Shown one piece after another: positions 18,093 through 57,500 of a stretch of 64,000 bases of DNA. Position 1 is the first letter of the stretch; every line of letters begins with the position of its first letter. The position numbers and the translations under genes are program-made. The DNA comes from Candidatus Altimarinota bacterium (GTDB taxonomy: Bacteria; Patescibacteriota; Gracilibacteria; BD1-5; UBA6164): assembly GCA_030683605.1 (NCBI GenBank), contig JAUXPL010000018.1, positions 1-64,000 of the forward strand. The letters are read 5' to 3'. A model generated the notes under the pieces. That model saw only the letters and a program-made list of their open reading frames with translations, had not been told where the DNA came from and did not search any database.

Positions 18093-18115
18093 ATTTTATT
18101 TGTATTTAGATTTAA

Positions 18116-18166
18116 TTAACCCACCTTTGAATTTCCTCCCTAATATTAGGGAGGAAGGCTCATTAT
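18116..18166. repeat. GC-rich palindromic element (TAACCC type) after the DUF559 gene
   Basis: Starts TTAACCCACC and contains the palindrome CCTCCCTAATATTAGGGAGG, then AAGGCTCATTA. The last bases form the TAA stop of the DUF559 gene. Same family as 18557, 23019, 39633, 46904 and 47351. Confidence 0.85.
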
Positions 18167-18540
18167 AATAAAAATGTTTTAATTTTTTCTAAAACTAGAT
18201 TTAAATTATTTTCTAAATCATCATTTTTAATCCTTATAACTTTAATTCAATTTTTATTTAATATTTTTTCTTTATAAATATCTAACTCATATACTTCTTT
18301 CAAATTATGAATATTTCAATCAACTTCAATAATAATTTTTTTTTCTTTACAATAAAAATCTGGAAAAATAAATCTATTTAATCAAGAATCTTCAGTATAA
18401 ACATACATAGGATTTTGTCTTAAAAATTTAACTCACAATTTATTATTTTTTAACTCATTCCATAATATTTTTTCTGAATAAGTCATATTTTTTCTCAAAT
18501 TTCTTCATATCTCTACTATATTATTTGGTACTATATACAT
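18163..18540 (-). CDS. DUF559 (Vsr-like) endonuclease-domain protein
   Basis: 125 residues. It has AREMRKNMTYSEKILW-like starts (here NLRKNMTYSEKILWNELKN), FLRQNPM, FIFPDFYCKEKKIIIEVDG and IRIKNDDL. This is the DUF559 domain, related to the very-short-patch-repair endonuclease fold (conserved D and E of PDFYC...IIEVDG). The Gly of EVDG is UGA. The gene is boxed between two palindromic elements (18116 and 18557). Its cellular role is unknown. Confidence 0.9.
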
Positions 18541-18556
18541 TTTTATTAAATTATTA

Positions 18557-18598
18557 TGTAGCTATTCCTCCCTAATATTAGGGAGGTTAGGTGGGTTA
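18557..18598. repeat. GC-rich palindromic element (TAACCC type) between tmk and DUF559 gene
   Basis: CCTCCCTAATATTAGGGAGG core followed by TTAGGTGGGTTA, inverted relative to the copy at 18116. It ends 3 bp from the tmk stop codon. Confidence 0.85.
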
Positions 18599-23008: not shown

Positions 23009-23018
23009 CAAAAAAGAA

Positions 23019-23169
23019 TAACCCATCCTTGAATTCCTTCCCTTAAGCCTAAGGGAAGGAGGCTACAATAAATTAAATGTAGCCTCTTTCCCCTGATACG
23101 TGTCCAGTCTTTAGCTGGAAGGGGAGAGAATTTATCCGAAGGTGTATCCTGTGGACAAGAGAGAGGTTA
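23019..23169. repeat. Composite GC-rich palindromic element after rpoD
   Basis: The left half is the TAACCC type (TAACCCATCCTTGAATTCC, then CCTTCCCT ... AGGGAAGGAGGCTACA). GTAGCCTC repeats as its inverse, and the right half carries the CCCCTGATACGTGTCCAGTC and GCTGGAAGGGGAGA blocks also seen at 19277 and 34150. It sits between convergent rpoD and the surface-protein gene and may act as their terminator. Confidence 0.85.
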
Positions 23170-28520: not shown

Positions 28521-28669
28521 CCAATACCATTAAGTTAAGGAATTGTGTACTATGGTTTTAATCCCTCCCCCTGCGGGTACTCCCTTTGGAAAAGGGAGAA
28601 AAAAAATTAAATCAAAAAAAAGGATCTATTTCTTCCCTTTTCAAGGGAAGTCCCGAAGGGGATGGGTTA
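28521..28669. repeat. Composite GC-rich palindromic element abutting the first radical SAM gene
   Basis: Left block CAATACCATTAAGTTAAGG, middle CCCTCCCCCTGCGGGTACTC and CCCTTTGGAAAAGGGAG, right CTTCCCTTTTCAAGGGAAG and CCCGAAGGGGATGGGTTAA. Nearly the same order of blocks recurs at 57309-57480. The terminal GGGTTAA gives the TAA stop of the radical SAM gene (28667-28669). Confidence 0.9.
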
Positions 28670-33498: not shown

Positions 33499-35637
33499 TT
33501 ATATTTCTATCTTACAATTTAAACACCCCTCTGAAATATTAGGAAACTTTTTATTCAAAAATAATTCATATTGTCTAGACAAAACTATTTCAAGTAAACT
33601 ATTTTTATTTATATTTCATAGATTATTCTCATAATCATCTAATATACAACATGGAGAAAAATCACCATTTTCATTTATCCTTATCTCTTTTTTAGACTTT
33701 ATAAAACTACAATTATTTCATTCTATTTTTTCAAAACTATTATTATTTAATATAAAATATATGAATTTATCAAATTCTCATTTATAGTAATCAGGAGAAA
33801 AAACTACTTTTATATTATTTTTATTTTCTAGTATATATTTTTTATCTTCATCGTAAAATATTTTTAATTGCTCCATAGTAGGAAATAAATATAATGTATC
33901 ATTTATAGGTGCTGTAGATATCATAGAAAAAGATATAGAATCTACTCATTTTTTCTTAAAAAAATCAAAAATATCCTTACTTTGGCTTATATTATCTCTT
34001 CTAATAGTAAAATTTATATGCACATTTATTCAATACTCTTTTAAATTAGAAATATTTTTATCAATCGTATTAAATAATCAGTTTATTCATCTGATTTTAT
34101 CATGTAATTCATATAATCAATCTACTGAAATATCCATATAATCAATAGAAACCCCTCTCAATTCTCCCCTTCCTGCTACGAGTCCCGTCTTTAGCGGGAA
34201 AGACTGGACATGTATAAGTGGAGATGAAGAAAATATATTAGTTGATTTATTTTTTACAATATTTTCGTAAAAATTATTTCATAATGTTGATCAATTCGTT
34301 GAAACTGAACTTATTAAATTCAGAGATTTACTTAAGTCTAATAGTTCAAAAAATCATTTATAAATAGTTGGTTCTCATCATGTAAAATTTACGACTTCTC
34401 ATCATAATTTATAAAAATCTAGTATAGATCTTTTAATATTTATAATATTATTATATTCCCGTTTTCTCTTTATTACTCAGCACATATCACATTTTGCATT
34501 ACATGCATTTGTTAGTCTGATTTTTATGTATTTGTATTTTTTATAATTTACGATAAACGATGCAGATAAATAAGCTCAAGAAAAATTTAAAATAATCCCT
34601 CCCCCTTCGGGTACTCCCTTTGGGAAAGGGAGATTTATAAACAATTTAGAAAGTTCATTTAAATTAATTTCATTTCAATTATATAAATAAATCACTTTTT
34701 TTGATAATATATCTAATCTAGCTTGTTGTTCTGTATCTGTTTTTCTAGGATAAATTATTGTAATTTTTTTATAATAAATATTTTCATATATATTATTGTA
34801 TCCTCACATAGTCACAACTAATTTTGCTTGTATTTTTAATTCTAGAAAATTATCAAAATAATCCTTTATTTCTAATTTGTTATTTGTTATAAGGTGTATT
34901 TTTTCTACATTTTCTTCAGTATAATTCTTTCATAAGTTCACAAATACTTTTCAATCAAAACTAGTATTATTTAACTTTTCTAAAAAATCTAGTACAAATT
35001 CAATTCCATCTTGTCATCCTCATATACTTATGAGAATATGATTTTTTTCTATTGTAGATTCTTTTAAATTATTGTTTACTATAAATCATGTATAGATTAT
35101 TTTTCTAGATATATTTTTATGAAATTTATCATTATAATTTATTATTTTTTCATCACTATGAATTAGAAATCTATCAAATAATTTTAGATTTTTTTCTTGA
35201 ATAGACTCTATATCAAATATATCTCTAACTGAACAAAAAACATTTCATTTATGATTTAATTGCTTATATTTTTTAATTAAATAATCTAACTCAAAATCTA
35301 AAAAATTTCTTCAAAAAGGATAATGTTCAATAATTAATGATTCTATATCTGTAATAGAAAATAATTTATCAAAAATAACTTTTCTAAATATTTTTATTTT
35401 TTTATTATGATTATTATCGATTAATTTATAATCAAATATTTGATAATTCGGTAAATTAATTATTTTTAAATTATTAGATTTTTTAAATAAAAAATCTTGT
35501 TTTTCTCAACTATTAATAACTATAATATTGTAATCAACTCAAAAATTCTCAATTATATTCTTTATAATTAGAGCTATTCTATTCCCATGACCAAGTCATC
35601 AGAAATTGTGATAATAAAATATTAATGTTTTTTTCAT
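33499..35637 (-). CDS. GT28-like glycosyltransferase fused to a radical SAM/SPASM protein
   Basis: 712 residues in one frame (33499-35637, no TAA/TAG). Residues 1-340 resemble MurG/GT28-type glycosyltransferases: YYHNFGGLGHGNR start, ISIGGGQDG, TMGGYNNIYE and RKTDTEQQAR. Residues about 375-712 are radical SAM: LTNACNAKCDMCGV, FTGGEPT, and a SPASM-like end (FSPCCILDD ... GCLNCKIE). The linker between them (about 335-350) is read from a palindromic element (34591), and a second element (34150) adds about 26 residues inside the radical SAM half. Either the fusion is native or an element removed a stop. It starts 8 bp after the upstream gene. Confidence 0.85.
34150..34225. repeat. In-frame palindromic element inside the GT28-radical SAM gene
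   Basis: Carries CCCCTTCCTGCTACGAG, TCCCGTCTTTAGCGGGA and GACTGGACATGTAT, the blocks of the intergenic element at 19277. In the host gene it is read, without stop, as about 26 residues (SPLIHVQSFPLKTGLVAGRG and flanks). They fall between TNIFS and IDYMDISVDG, where other radical SAM proteins of the island have no insert. Confidence 0.85.
34591..34633. repeat. In-frame palindromic element at the GT28/radical SAM junction
   Basis: CCCTCCCCCTTCGGGTACTC plus CCCTTTGGGAAAGGGAG, the block also found at 28561, 57354 and (inverted) 15050. Read in the host gene as NLPFPKGVPEGGGII, exactly between the two enzyme domains. Confidence 0.85.
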
Positions 35638-38362: not shown

Positions 38363-41300
38363 TTACATACTCAACAACTCCTCCAACTTCTCAACCCCCT
38401 TCTCACTTCAAAATTCCTCTTTGACCTTTTCTAATCAATTAACAACAATCCTTTCAAAATCAAAAAGTCCCTTTATCTTCTCCAAATCTTCCTCTACATT
38501 TCCACTTAAAACTACTCATGTTTCTCAGTCAATTATTAATTCTCCAATCCCTCAAACAAGCGTGCTAAATACTAGATTTCAACTAAGCATATTTTCAAGT
38601 ATCATATTTGGTATTCAATCTGTATCTCAGTTAGTTGATACTTTTGAATAATTGATATATGTATTATAATTATTAATCTGCTTTAACAAATCTTTATGCT
38701 CTAAAAAGCCAAAATACTTGATTTTATTAGTTAATCATAATTCATATATTTTTTTGAAAATATCATTTTTTAATTCTCCATCTCAGATTAATCATATTTT
38801 AGCTACTAAATCCTGCTTTTCTAAAAGTGCTATCAAATCTAGTACTTCTACAATCCCCTTTTTTTCTACGAATCTTCATCATATAAGTATATTTAATTTT
38901 GAAAAATCCTTCTTAATAAAAATATACTTTGAAAAATCTAATACACTTCTAACTATTTCTATTTTTTCATTTATACCTAATTTCTCCCTTTTTCAAAGGG
39001 ATTGGCTGAAAGCCGAGGGATTAGAAAAATCAATAACACTTATTGTAGCCCCTTGCCCTTTTCAAGGGAAAGGATTTATGCCCGAAGGGAGGTATCCTGT
39101 GGACAGGTTAGGGTTATTTAAATGTTTCTCTAATTCTCATCTCATCTCCCCATCCCTCACAAATATCTTATCAATATTATCCAGAAACTTATTTTGATTT
39201 TTTAAAAAACTATACACATCATATCACCTAGCTGCTGAATATATTTTTATATCTAGTAATAATGTTTTTATCTTTGAGATAAAAAATGCATCAAATAAAA
39301 ACTCTGTATAAATTATTTTAATATCATATTTCTTTATTAAAAAAACAAAATATTTTAAATATTTAATATATAATTCTGTATCATTTATTTTTGGGTATTC
39401 TATATCTAATAATGTATCAAATTCTTTCCTATAAACTATATTGAAATTATTCGGAAATATATGATTATTATCCATTTTAAGTGTAAAAATTATAGGATTT
39501 ACTTTTTCTAGGAGGCTAAGTTCTTCATATATAAAATTCTCTGATTTAGGCAAAAATATATTCTTAAAAACTAATATATTTCTCTTATTTATTTCTTTTA
39601 TTATTTCCTCACTTATAATTTTTTTTCCATCTTGTAGCCTCCTTCCATTTTCAAGGGAAGGAATTCAAGGATGGGTTAATAATTTGTCAAAACAATTTAA
39701 ATCTTTATTCTCATCATAACTCCCCTTCTTAATAAAATCTACTCCGAAATGATTCATAAAAAAATCTATTCTATCAGATTGATTTTCAGCGTTTCTTTCT
39801 ACTGGAAATAACAAACACTTTGTGTTTGAAAAAAATACTTCATTTATAGTATTGTATCATCATCTACCGATAAATAATTCTGAGTTTATAATACTTTTTG
39901 ACAAATTGTTATCAAATTGTGAAATATTTATGAATTCTGGAATCCTTAAATTAGCTGTTAATTCATCATAATATTTTCATAAGACAAATGTGATTTCATA
40001 TTTTGAAAATAATTCTATATTTGAATTTATTAGTTTAGTTACAAATTCAAAAAAATATTTTGTATTTTCATAGTCTCAAGCATATCCAGGTGAAACTAAA
40101 ACCCCTCCGGCTTTCAGTCACATACCCTTATCAAGGGAGGAAATATTTATATCTTCATAAACATATCATGAGAAAAATATATTCTTGTAGTTATTATAAA
40201 GATCCTGTTTTTCCTGAGATAATTCTTCTATAATATGAGGAATAAATATTTTCTTAAAAATAAATAAATAAGTTTGTATAGAATTTAAATAATCTAGTTC
40301 ACTATCTCTTAAAATCAAAAAATGTGATAAATCTGGTCTATTATCTAATACTTTTTTTATAAAGTAAGTATCATGTATTATTATATCTATGTTGTTTTGT
40401 TTTATGATTTCATTTATTTTTGAAAAATTTTCAGATTCATATTCTTGAAAAGAAGTATTATTTAAACAATCCTCTATTCAATAATCTAATGATAAAACTC
40501 TAAATCATGCATCCTCTATTAAAAATGGATTTTTACTATTAGTTACAAATATTATTTCTCATATAACATCTGATTTATGAAGTTCTTGTGCTATTAACAA
40601 AGTCCTTTTTATATGTCATAATCCTATACCATTTATAGAATGAATTATTGCATTTTTTTTATTTAAAAAATATTTTTTAAAATCATTTGAAAGCTTTGAT
40701 TTTAGATTTTTTTCTAGATTATTATATCTATCATAAATATATCTTTTATAGTCAGGAGAATTGTGTTTTTGATAGTTTTTGAGCCAATTATTAGATAGTG
40801 ATTCAATATTTTTTTCTTCTAATATTTTATATGGTGGATTATACAATTTTTCTGATAAATTAAGTACTTGTAGATTTTCATTAAATACTATTTTGTGTCC
40901 TGCTTGTTGTAATCTAAATCAAAACTCAGTATCCTCATCTCACCATGAAACAAGTGATTCATCAAATCATCAAATACTTAAATAAATATCTTTTTTGATA
41001 AAAAAATTGGATGCACAGAAAAATTCCCAGATTCTATTTTTATTTTGTTTTTCATGATAGAAATTGATTCTGAAATCACTAAAATCTGGATTATTTATAT
41101 ATCAATTATCTATGAAAAAATCTATGCCTTCATCATTTAATTCTTTTTCTAAATTATTATATCATAAGTATGGTCAAATTATTACATCATCTTTATCTAT
41201 ATATTTTAGTATTTTTTCTATATGATTTTTACTAAGAATTGTTTCCTGATCTATAAAATATAGATTTTGACTTCATGCTAATTCTGCTCATTTATTTCTA

Positions 41301-45487: not shown

Positions 45488-45610
45488 TTAACAGCCCTCA
45501 CCTAACCTCTCCCAAAGGGAGAGGAAATTAAGGATAATTGTTTTTTTACATATTGTCCCCTCTCCCTTTGGAGAGGGCTAGGGTGAGGGCATTCATTAAT
45601 AAGGAGGGGG
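45488..45610. repeat. Composite GC-rich palindromic element between radical SAM genes
   Basis: The outer arms GCCCTCACCTAACC and GGCTAGGGTGAGGGC pair imperfectly. Inside are CTCTCCCAAAGGGAGAGG and CTCTCCCTTTGGAGAGGG. It ends AAGGAGGGGG, about 26 nt before the next ATG. It interrupts an otherwise tight operon. Confidence 0.85.
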
Positions 45611-45635: not shown

Positions 45636-46622
45636 ATGACTCATTATATAAAAAGTATAAATTGGATATTTACATATAAATGTAATCTGAAATGCAATCA
45701 TTGCGACATCTGGAGTTATGATTATAAATCAGAACTAAGTATAGAAAAAATAAAAGAAATCGTAAATTCAAAAATCATTCAAAATAGTTATAAATATTAT
45801 TGAGAATTTTTTGATATTGGTATAAGTGGATGAGAACCATTATTAATAGAAAATTTGGAAGAAAAAATGCTTGTAATAGATGAGTATTTACCTAACTCTA
45901 TACATTCAATAAGTACAAACTGAATATTGACTAATAAGTTGATGAAATTGCTTATATTTTGGAAGAAAAAATGAAAAAGTTTTAAAAAGATAAATATTTC
46001 AGTCGATTGAAAACAAATAAACCATGATAGACAAAGATGATCCCTATGAAGTTTTATAAAAGTTTTAGAAACTATTTGAAAAATAAAAAAAGTATTTCCT
46101 AAACAGATTATAGAATTGAAAATGACTATAACAAAAAATAATTATAAAGATATAATATTTTTGTGTAGATTAGCAAATAAACTATGAGTAAATTTTTCAT
46201 TTAAACCTGTGGAAAATATGACTAATTATACTAATCAAAAAAATGATTATAATGTGCATTTTACTGAAGATGAAATAATTGAAATCGAAAATCAAGTATA
46301 TGACAATCCATATATAATCGAGCAATGAAATTATATAAATAAAAATTTTTTCTATAAAATACCTGATTACTTGAGAAACTGATTATGAGAAGAAAAAAAG
46401 AATTGTAGTATAGCAAAAGATTCTATTACTATTATGCCTGATGCTAATGTTTTTTCTTGTATACTTATGAATAAAATCTGAGATCTAATAGAAAATAATT
46501 TAGATGAAATATGGAATTGAAAAAATATTAAATTACAGAGAAAAGATATTGAAAATGGAGATTGTCCAGAATGTATGCTGATGTGTGGAGCATTTAAATC
46601 AAAAGAAATATATGACAGATAA
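45636..46622 (+). CDS. Radical SAM/SPASM protein (island member 9)
   Basis: 328 residues. TYKCNLKCNHCDIWSYD (about 13-29), ISGGEPLLIEN, ISTNGIL, ISVDGKQINHD, and a SPASM end with VFSCILMNKIGDL, IWNGKN and CPECMLMC. GGE is GGA-UGA. Its stop overlaps the start of member 10 (ATGACAGATAA). Confidence 0.9.
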
Positions 46623-47673
46623 ATATATCATAAACTGGGAATTATCACTTGCCTGCAATTTAGATTGCTCTTTTTGTAGTCAAAAAGAAAGAAGGAATCT
46701 AAATAATAAAATACCTAGTCTAGAAAATATTTATCAAATAATTGATAATTTACCTAATAATACTCACATATCATTTCTATGATGAGAAACTCTAATGTTA
46801 CCAAATATAATAGATATATTTAAGAAACTTGAAGAAAGATGAATCTCATATGAAATAACTACAAATGGAATACTTCTAGATAAATTTTTTGGTGTTGTTA
46901 TGAATAACCCAACCTTAAATTCCCTCCCTAAAATTAGGGAGGGAGGCTACAATAAAATTGAACAATTAAAACATTTAACTCAAATAAATATTTCTATAGA
47001 TTGATATGGTGATTTTCATGATATATCTAGATGAAAAAAATGATTATTTAATAAATTAAAAAAAGTTATTCCAGAATTAATAAATATCAAAAATATTACA
47101 ATATCCACTGTTATCAGTCCGAATCTAACTAATGAAAATATAGTCAAATTGCATCTATGGTTAAATAGTATATGAATAAAAGAACACAAATTGATTTATA
47201 TGATGAATTTTTCCAAAATAGATGTAGAAAATTCAAAAAATAAAATAAAGGAATTAAAAATATGATTACCTGGTTCAGAAAAGCTAGATAATAATGTATT
47301 GAAAAATAATTTCTTAGAAAAATTATCACTACTAAAAAATCTATGAAATAATAACCCCTCCTTGTATTCCTTCCCTAAAATTAGGGAAGGAGGCTACAAA
47401 AAAATTCAAATAACAATAGAACCTATTGCCTTATTTAAAAAATGAAAGATTTCATGTAAACAATTAGATAAACAATTGAGAATAGATGAAAATGGAAAAC
47501 TTTCTATATGTGAATTTATCACAAATAATTTCGATGATATTTCAAAAATAAAACTAAATGATGCTATAAAAAATAATGATTTTATTGAATTTAAAAAAGC
47601 TATTAAATCAAATTTCCCACTAGATATATGCAAAACTTGTTGTAAATTATATAATGAAAACTCCTCTAACTAA
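46612..47673 (+). CDS. Radical SAM/SPASM protein with two in-frame palindromic inserts (island member 10)
   Basis: 353 residues. The ATG at 46612 overlaps the previous stop and is preferred to an upstream GTG. ELSLACNLDCSFCSQKE (about 9-25), FLGGETLMLPN, ISIDGYGDFHD; SPASM end LSICEFITN ... DICKTCCKLYN. Residues about 98-115 (NNPTLNSLPKIREGGYNKI) and 247-264 (NNPSLYSFPKIREGGYKKI) are nearly identical and are the translation of two copies of one palindromic element. Last gene of the plus-strand operon. Confidence 0.9.
46904..46956. repeat. In-frame palindromic element, copy 1 in radical SAM member 10
   Basis: TAACCCAACCTTAAATTCC, CCCTCCCTAAAATTAGGGAG, GGAGGCTACAATAAAAT. Read as NNPTLNSLPKIREGGYNKI. 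The same DNA as 47351 with a few substitutions. Confidence 0.92.
47351..47401. repeat. In-frame palindromic element, copy 2 in radical SAM member 10
   Basis: TAACCCCTCCTTGTATTCC, TTCCCTAAAATTAGGGAAGG, AGGCTACAAAAAAAT. Read as NNPSLYSFPKIREGGYKKI, the same frame and orientation as copy 1. Confidence 0.92.
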
Positions 47674-57308: not shown

Positions 57309-57500
57309 TAACCCAATAACTTTAAGTTATGGAATTGTGTACTATGGTTTTATTCCCTCCCCCTTACGGGTACTCCCTTTGGAAAAGGGAGAAATTTCTT
57401 CCCTTTCCAAGGGAAGTCCCGAGGTACGAGGGGATGGGTTAGAAAAATATACCACATATTCACATAACTTAATGGTATTAGTTACCCCCCCGCAAGGGGG
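57309..57500. repeat. Composite GC-rich palindromic element inside the ATP synthase operon
   Basis: Outer pair TAACTTTAAGTTATGG (57315) and CATAACTTAATGG (57462). Inner blocks CCCTCCCCCTTACGGGTACTC, CCCTTTGGAAAAGGGAG, CTTCCCTTTCCAAGGGAAG and CGAGGGGATGGGTTA, the same order as in 28521-28669. A further CCCCCCGCAAGGGGG hairpin follows. It lies between atpG and gene X. Confidence 0.9.

Follow-up and report, generated by a model that had tools for sequence, protein, structure and literature searches.

The stretch of DNA analysed here (the window, 64,000 nucleotides from a Candidatus Altimarinota bacterium) has a G+C content of 23.4%, and TGA is read through in its genes. At 46612-47673 (+) lies an intact gene which, under code 25 (TGA as Gly), encodes a 353-residue protein with a radical SAM domain at residues 11-183 (PF04055, E=7.9e-18) and a SPASM domain at residues 282-343 (E=2.4e-4). 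The Cys motif (CNLDCSFC), a Cys-rich SPASM domain and profile matches above cut-off all place the protein in the radical SAM/SPASM family, and the solved folds nearest to its predicted model are radical SAM enzymes (SuiB, Z 11.4). Two stretches of this gene are copies of a palindromic element:

46903-46959, +, insert 1, residues 98-116, read as NNPTLNSLPKIREGGYNKI; hairpin of -19.1 kcal/mol
47350-47406, +, insert 2, residues 247-265, read as NNPSLYSFPKIREGGYKKI; hairpin of -19.8 kcal/mol

The original prediction held that one palindromic element occurs twice in this gene, in the same frame and orientation, and both parts proved correct. Compared over 46903-46962 and 47350-47409, the two copies share 87% identity (60 nt) and form the longest direct repeat within the surrounding 7 kb, and the code-25 translation places them on one strand and in a common reading frame; only the start of the element, given as 46904, was 1 nt late and is moved to 46903. 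The RNA of each insert folds into an 11-bp hairpin with a 4-nt loop, with additional pairs around the hairpin in insert 2. The window holds 12 sites that resemble CCCTAAAATTAGGG with at most 3 mismatches, where 3.7 are expected, and none of 100 shuffles reaches 12. Insert 1 is contained in the radical SAM Pfam match, at a distance from its Cys motif, and insert 2 falls between the radical SAM and SPASM matches. On the suggested check for surface loops, residues 99-113 and 247-263 are predicted to be low-confidence coil between helices and strands. Since the model rests on 4 sequences and has a mean pLDDT of only 53.6, this placement is merely suggestive.

The search for orthologues covered 77 genomes of the order, among which G000 denotes the window's own genome and other G numbers the further genomes. 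The radical SAM gene is present in five (its own, G002, G004, G012 and G064), and only the own genome carries both inserts together. The orthologues of G002 (80% by BLAST), G012 (53%) and G064 lack both. In that of G004 (83% by BLAST), site 1 is occupied by another and longer copy of the element, HNPSLSTGYLPTGINSFPKIREGSYN, and site 2 is empty. The gaps in the orthologues amount to whole codons, about 20 at insert 1 and about 17 at insert 2. Homologues carrying the same residues at the same places would have refuted the original prediction; none was found among the four orthologues, and its claim of lineage-specific in-frame insertion is borne out by sites that are empty or differently filled. 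There is thus next to no doubt that a dispersed element has been inserted in frame into this gene. Movement within a species has not been observed.

The element is widely dispersed. A BLAST search of the own genome with copy 1 returns copy 2 (E=1.4e-14), a further intergenic copy (8.5e-11) and copies across the genome, and both BLAST and a covariance model detect an intergenic copy in the window:

23017-23071, +, intergenic element copy

An alignment of thirteen copies, among them both inserts, DUF559 ends and copies from prepilins and intergenic DNA, has a mean column identity of 78%; the hairpin of these copies shows 18 both-side compensatory changes (shuffle mean 6.9), no one-sided change and one broken cell. 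The covariance model built from these copies gives minimum counts of 44 for the own genome, 43, 51 and 48 for three of four congeners and 31 for G012, and finds some copy in at least 24 of the 77 genomes. It scores the two inserts at 77.8 and 74.8 bits, values that are partly circular because both are among the 13 copies. A search of the window against Rfam matched no known structured RNA. Open reading frames cover about 90% of the window, and of 27 own-genome model hits examined only four lie inside long ORFs, to which BLAST adds one more prepilin copy; insertions into genes seem to be mostly purged. All five remaining intragenic copies are in frame and on the strand of the host gene, the hosts being the radical SAM gene (twice), a 1057-residue glycosyltransferase and two prepilins. 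In both prepilins the insert sits in the leader, before the FTLVE processing region, and would be removed along with it. Element copies in or adjoining type IV prepilin leaders are seen at L030 and L035 in the own genome and at L155 and L159 in G004. At another locus of the own genome (L034, C9:10633) an element AACAACCTCACCC...GGGTGAGGTTGTT is apparently nested in a different one (CCTATCC...GGATAGG), an arrangement that could give exact boundaries. The window also holds intergenic close pairs of GC-rich hairpins at 28580-28650, 45506-45577 and 57373-57416, which resemble the gene-less two-ended units described below.

Further in-frame copies lie in neighbouring genes:

34600-34660 (bounds approximate), -, related element type in a 712-residue gene (33499-35637, -), read as NLPFPKGVPEGGGII; also in G004, different in G002
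38979-39127, -, second, larger in-frame copy in the 1057-residue glycosyltransferase gene, NNPNLSTGYLPSGINPFPGKGQGATI...; absent from G012, variable in G004 and G002
39629-39680, -, copy in the same glycosyltransferase gene, read as THPGIPSLENGRRLQDG in another frame, with TGA as Gly
40098-40148, -, third in-frame element-like copy in that gene, ISSLDKGMGLKAGG; absent from G004

Because the copy at 39629-39680 reads TGA as Gly, recoding gives access to a frame that is closed under the standard code. When the glycosyltransferase and radical SAM proteins of the cluster are aligned with those of G004, G002 and G012, the same loops prove to be filled with different element copies from species to species; for instance, the window has THPGIPSLENGRRLQDG where G004 has NPFSYLRERGYKE, G002 NPFSNFRERGYKE and G012 a compound of about 50 residues. 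Insertion at the same tolerant loops is recurrent. In the radical SAM part of the 712-residue protein, about 36 residues, SSSPLIHVQSFPLKTGLVAGRGELRGV, are absent from both G004 and G002, and the DNA of this stretch resembles a further palindromic repeat type.

That DUF559 genes lie among palindromes of this kind was a lead that was then put to the test. One such gene lies in the window between two inverted element copies:

18116-18163, +, left palindromic end, TTAACCCACCTTTGAATTTCCTCCCTAATATTAGGGAGGAAGGCTC..., assigned to the family of the inserts
18163-18540, -, DUF559 (PF04480) nuclease gene, 125 residues under code 25, E=7e-24
18554-18598, -, right palindromic end, inverted, TTATGTAGCTATTCCTCCCTAATATTAGGGAGGTTAGGTGGGTTA

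Together these make up a composite unit of about 480 bp (18116-18598), with a palindromic end, the DUF559 gene and an inverted palindromic end. The left end is matched by model R1 at 18115-18167 (E=1e-11, the copy itself being in the model's alignment), and the inserts very probably belong to the same family as the DUF559 ends. Five PF04480 matches occur in the own genome, the one in the window (18169-18513) scoring 84.2 bits against a curated cut-off of 20.6. The outer ends of the unit read TTAACCC/GGGTTA in inverted orientation. Neither a target-site duplication nor an exact junction is readable at this unit or at the two inserts, the flanks being 15-20% diverged from the empty sites. At the orthologous intergenic site the whole unit is missing from G004 and G001; what G002 holds at this site is a remnant that comprises the two ends and an apparent part of the DUF559 gene, as an internal-deletion derivative would show.

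Relatives of the unit take several forms. The end adjoining a DUF559 gene of G012 (L098), AACCCATCCTTGAATTCCTTCCC..GGGAAGGAGGCTGCA, differs from insert 2 by a few bases; in G060, G061 and G068 matches to the element model face each other on both sides of DUF559; and certain relatives (L277) have ends of about 45 bp that are almost perfect inverted repeats of one another, each with a hairpin. Solo ends and gene-less two-ended forms (L012, L013) are both frequent, which gives the family the look of an autonomous unit accompanied by non-autonomous derivatives. The multi-copy DUF559 units of G002 lie inside a separate MITE-like element with 23-bp inverted repeats, GGCATAATCTAAATTTTGGTGGA, for which 8-bp target duplications were read by eye at four copies. 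This element carries near-identical DUF559 units at many places (L085-L093, L111-L126), and one of its copies (C28:3218-3361) lacks the DUF559 gene and one palindromic end. Elsewhere in G002 (L247, C16:164.9 kb) the palindromic end stands three times in tandem, 77 bp apart, beside a DUF559 gene. In G075 (L279, C28) a tRNA-like sequence immediately precedes a DUF559 gene, which has a palindromic end on the right only.

The model of the window's DUF559 protein has a pLDDT of 89.7 and is closest to 3hrl, the endonuclease-like protein NGO0050 (Z 14.0, rmsd 1.1, 89 residues aligned), followed by the homing endonuclease I-Bth0305I (Z 11.2, rmsd 2.4, 91 aligned) and Vsr (Z 9.6, rmsd 2.1, 97 aligned); the match to TnsA (Z 7.1) is in a range that possibly reflects only a common arrangement. 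Residues D61, E72, D74, H78 and D87 are invariant in 42 sequences, a set that presumably suits a PD-(D/E)XK nuclease. The profile score and the modelled Vsr-like fold place the protein in the DUF559 family; cutting of the element ends is inferred. The Vsr-like/EDxHD homing endonucleases, to which I-Bth0305I belongs, are also alike in being nuclease genes that spread with their own DNA. They differ in that DUF559 lies in no intron or intein, palindromic ends flank the gene, and no homing to an allelic site has been shown. A role as a clear defence protein was considered and rejected, padloc giving weak matches only.

Paired ends are a property of DUF559 genes well beyond this lineage. When 138 ORFs from about 156 kb of DNA (the window, G004, G002 and G012) were ranked by inverted-repeat similarity of their flanks, the two DUF559 ORFs took ranks 1 and 2, the window's gene first; the other is the G004 match at C14:23498. 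An initial DUF559 alignment of 15 divergent rows contained no stretch conserved enough for a collection scan, and a closer set was used. Across 57 DUF559 loci from Bacteroidota, Cyanobacteria, Chloroflexi, Zixibacteria, Calditrichaeota, Nitrospirae, Gammaproteobacteria and others, the flank score averages 22.2, compared with 9.4 for distant flanks and 11.0 for mispaired flanks. Forty-three loci exceed every distant-flank control (p=1.9e-10), and the other 14, about a quarter, fall within the control range, without clear paired ends. Scores of at least 16 are reached by 18 of 39 DUF559 ORFs and by 1 of 59 other ORFs of the same loci (p=3.7e-9). Paired inverted palindromic flanks are thus general for DUF559 genes in many phyla. 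Within the order, DUF559 is present in 22 of 24 element-bearing genomes versus 23 of 53 others (p=5e-5). The two element-bearing genomes without it, G058 and G064, hold one copy each and are each at most 80% complete.

Insertion relative to the orthologues, membership in a copy family, paired inverted ends, empty sites, a nuclease fold and the general association are all observed, and the inserts are probably best explained, as a whole, as solo ends of the DUF559 unit, spread by its nuclease and inserted in frame. By this account a short dispersed palindromic mobile element would have entered an active gene twice, and both inserts would have survived by keeping the frame and hitting a tolerant loop. 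Each insert would correspond to one hairpin, the solo end of a composite unit of about 480 bp. The DUF559 protein, as a putative PD-(D/E)XK nuclease of the Vsr/I-Bth0305I fold, would recognise the hairpin ends and cut there, and repair or copying after cutting may then spread the whole unit, the gene-less two-ended forms and, in trans, the single ends. Solo ends are inferred to arise by deletion or one-ended events. Whether DUF559 is in fact the mobiliser remains evenly poised, recognition and cutting of the ends and mobility itself being inferred.

Alternatively, DUF559 may be a passenger or a Vsr-like host repair gene that merely collects hairpins or is carried, with an unrelated DDE transposase moving the palindromes as ordinary MITEs. 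The G002 copies that ride inside a MITE with 8-bp target duplications speak for this; that MITE-like element is possibly the mover of the G002 units, and other transposases can move such units. A Caulobacter DUF559 protein has likewise been proposed to act in a Vsr-like manner (PMC12907096). Against this stands the specificity of paired inverted ends for DUF559 ORFs relative to their neighbours, which holds in many phyla and with different palindrome sequences, and the left and right ends of one locus are far more alike than ends of different loci. This alternative as a whole is unlikely, though far from negligible.

The elements could also be GTAG-type REPs moved by RAYT tyrosine transposases. 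GTAG/CGTC REPs are similarly short, dispersed hairpins, occur singly or as inverted pairs and are sometimes intragenic, even twice per gene (PMC3733652). The inserts end in GGCTACA (TGTAGCC on the other strand), so that, as in GTAG REPs, the hairpin is immediately preceded by GTAGCC on that other strand. This tag is not found on all family copies, several of which carry CTCA or CTGCA in place of CTACA. The hairpins flank DUF559 rather than a RAYT gene, and no RAYT-type Y1 transposase (Y1_Tnp, PF01797) is present in G000, G002 or G004, all of them element-rich. Across the 77 genomes, Y1 transposases are not associated with the element (9 of 24 element-bearing versus 11 of 53 other genomes, p=0.16); this value and the corresponding one for DUF559 are both optimistic, as the compared genomes are related. 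Movement by RAYT is thus improbable.

It is more improbable still that the inserts were selected for a function, either as a peptide that helps the enzyme or as an mRNA hairpin that tunes expression. The mRNA hairpins are stable (about -19 kcal/mol), and frame and hairpin are intact in both copies, yet neither site is conserved among orthologues, and sister species carry different copies and frames at the same glycosyltransferase loop. The dN/dS of the gene is also about equal with and without the inserts (0.18 for the window versus G004, 0.18 versus G002 and 0.21 for G004 versus G002), which places it under purifying selection either way. Least probable of all is that copy 2 arose by duplication inside the gene: no other pair in the surrounding 7 kb is as similar as the two copies, but no repetition extends beyond the element borders, G004 has site 1 filled and site 2 empty, and similar copies exist elsewhere in the genome, so that this is largely refuted, although the two copies may still have undergone gene conversion with each other.

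Reading the inserts as coding palindromes is thus right, and they form a new family of a known kind. The Rickettsia palindromic elements (RPEs) and the coding palindromes of Wolbachia likewise occur both between genes and in frame within conserved genes, where the protein tolerates them (PMC2229807). The parallel with RPEs drawn in the original prediction stands for the mode of working, and membership among them has not been shown. The present element belongs to a different phylum and measures 48-60 nt (51-60 nt for inserts) in a code-25 genome of Patescibacteria type, whereas RPEs measure 105-146 bp; given these differences in size and lineage, it shares the mode of working of RPEs without being one of them. 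We know of no encoded nuclease partner for RPEs, whereas here one is in sight.

A second comparison is offered by the BoxC/PIT/TMECO repeats, which occur in E. coli and in over 260 prokaryotes and are G/C-rich palindromes laid out as C-tract, G-tract, TTA and G-tract. The right end of the window's unit (CCTCCC..GGGAGGTTAGGTGGGTTA) has, by eye, a BoxC/TMECO-like layout, and the inserts represent the other end type. The BoxC/TMECO study reports no mobility gene near TMECO sites and, in the part available, neither a link to DUF559 nor any coding insertion (PMC4666352). In E. coli K-12 MG1655, ycjD (L303, 1868-2221), between sapF and fabI, is a DUF559 gene. The repeat downstream of it contains CCCTCGCCCCTCTGGGGAGAGGGTTAGGGTGAGGGG, identical to TMECO-9 of that study (PMC4666352); at the threshold used, this family occupies a median of 18 places in an E. 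coli genome. The full ycjD segment is present in 3361 of 5426 E. coli genomes. The gene is a candidate partner for BoxC repeats; as its left side carries a different palindrome, E. coli is only a partial example. As a clean empty/filled pair ycjD was rejected: strains without it have an efflux operon there (PMC12817139), so that there is no empty site at that place.

How such palindromic elements transpose has no experimental support, according to a review (PMC2229807), and beyond RAYT-linked REPs the mover of short bacterial palindromes is an open question. With inverted palindromic flanks across many phyla and a homing-endonuclease fold, DUF559 is a direct suspect. Tentatively, with somewhat less than even confidence, DUF559 proteins may be the missing mobilisers of widespread bacterial palindromic repeats, including E. 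coli BoxC. The units would then represent minimal mobile elements of a new class, in which two structured palindromic ends enclose a nuclease gene of the Vsr fold. Their solo ends would spread in trans and, in genomes of Gracilibacteria type, would enter genes in frame and make proteins longer. As far as the sources consulted were accessible, a link of DUF559 to repeats is undescribed (neither PMC12907096 nor PMC12308824 ties it to palindromes, and abstracts of other papers on DUF559 show no hint of it), and this link turns a curiosity into a hypothesis on repeat spread that is testable in E. coli K-12 via ycjD. For the organism itself, the two in-frame copies in the radical SAM gene, and those in nearby glycosyltransferase genes, show such elements at work as a supply of new protein loops in a lineage remote from Rickettsia.
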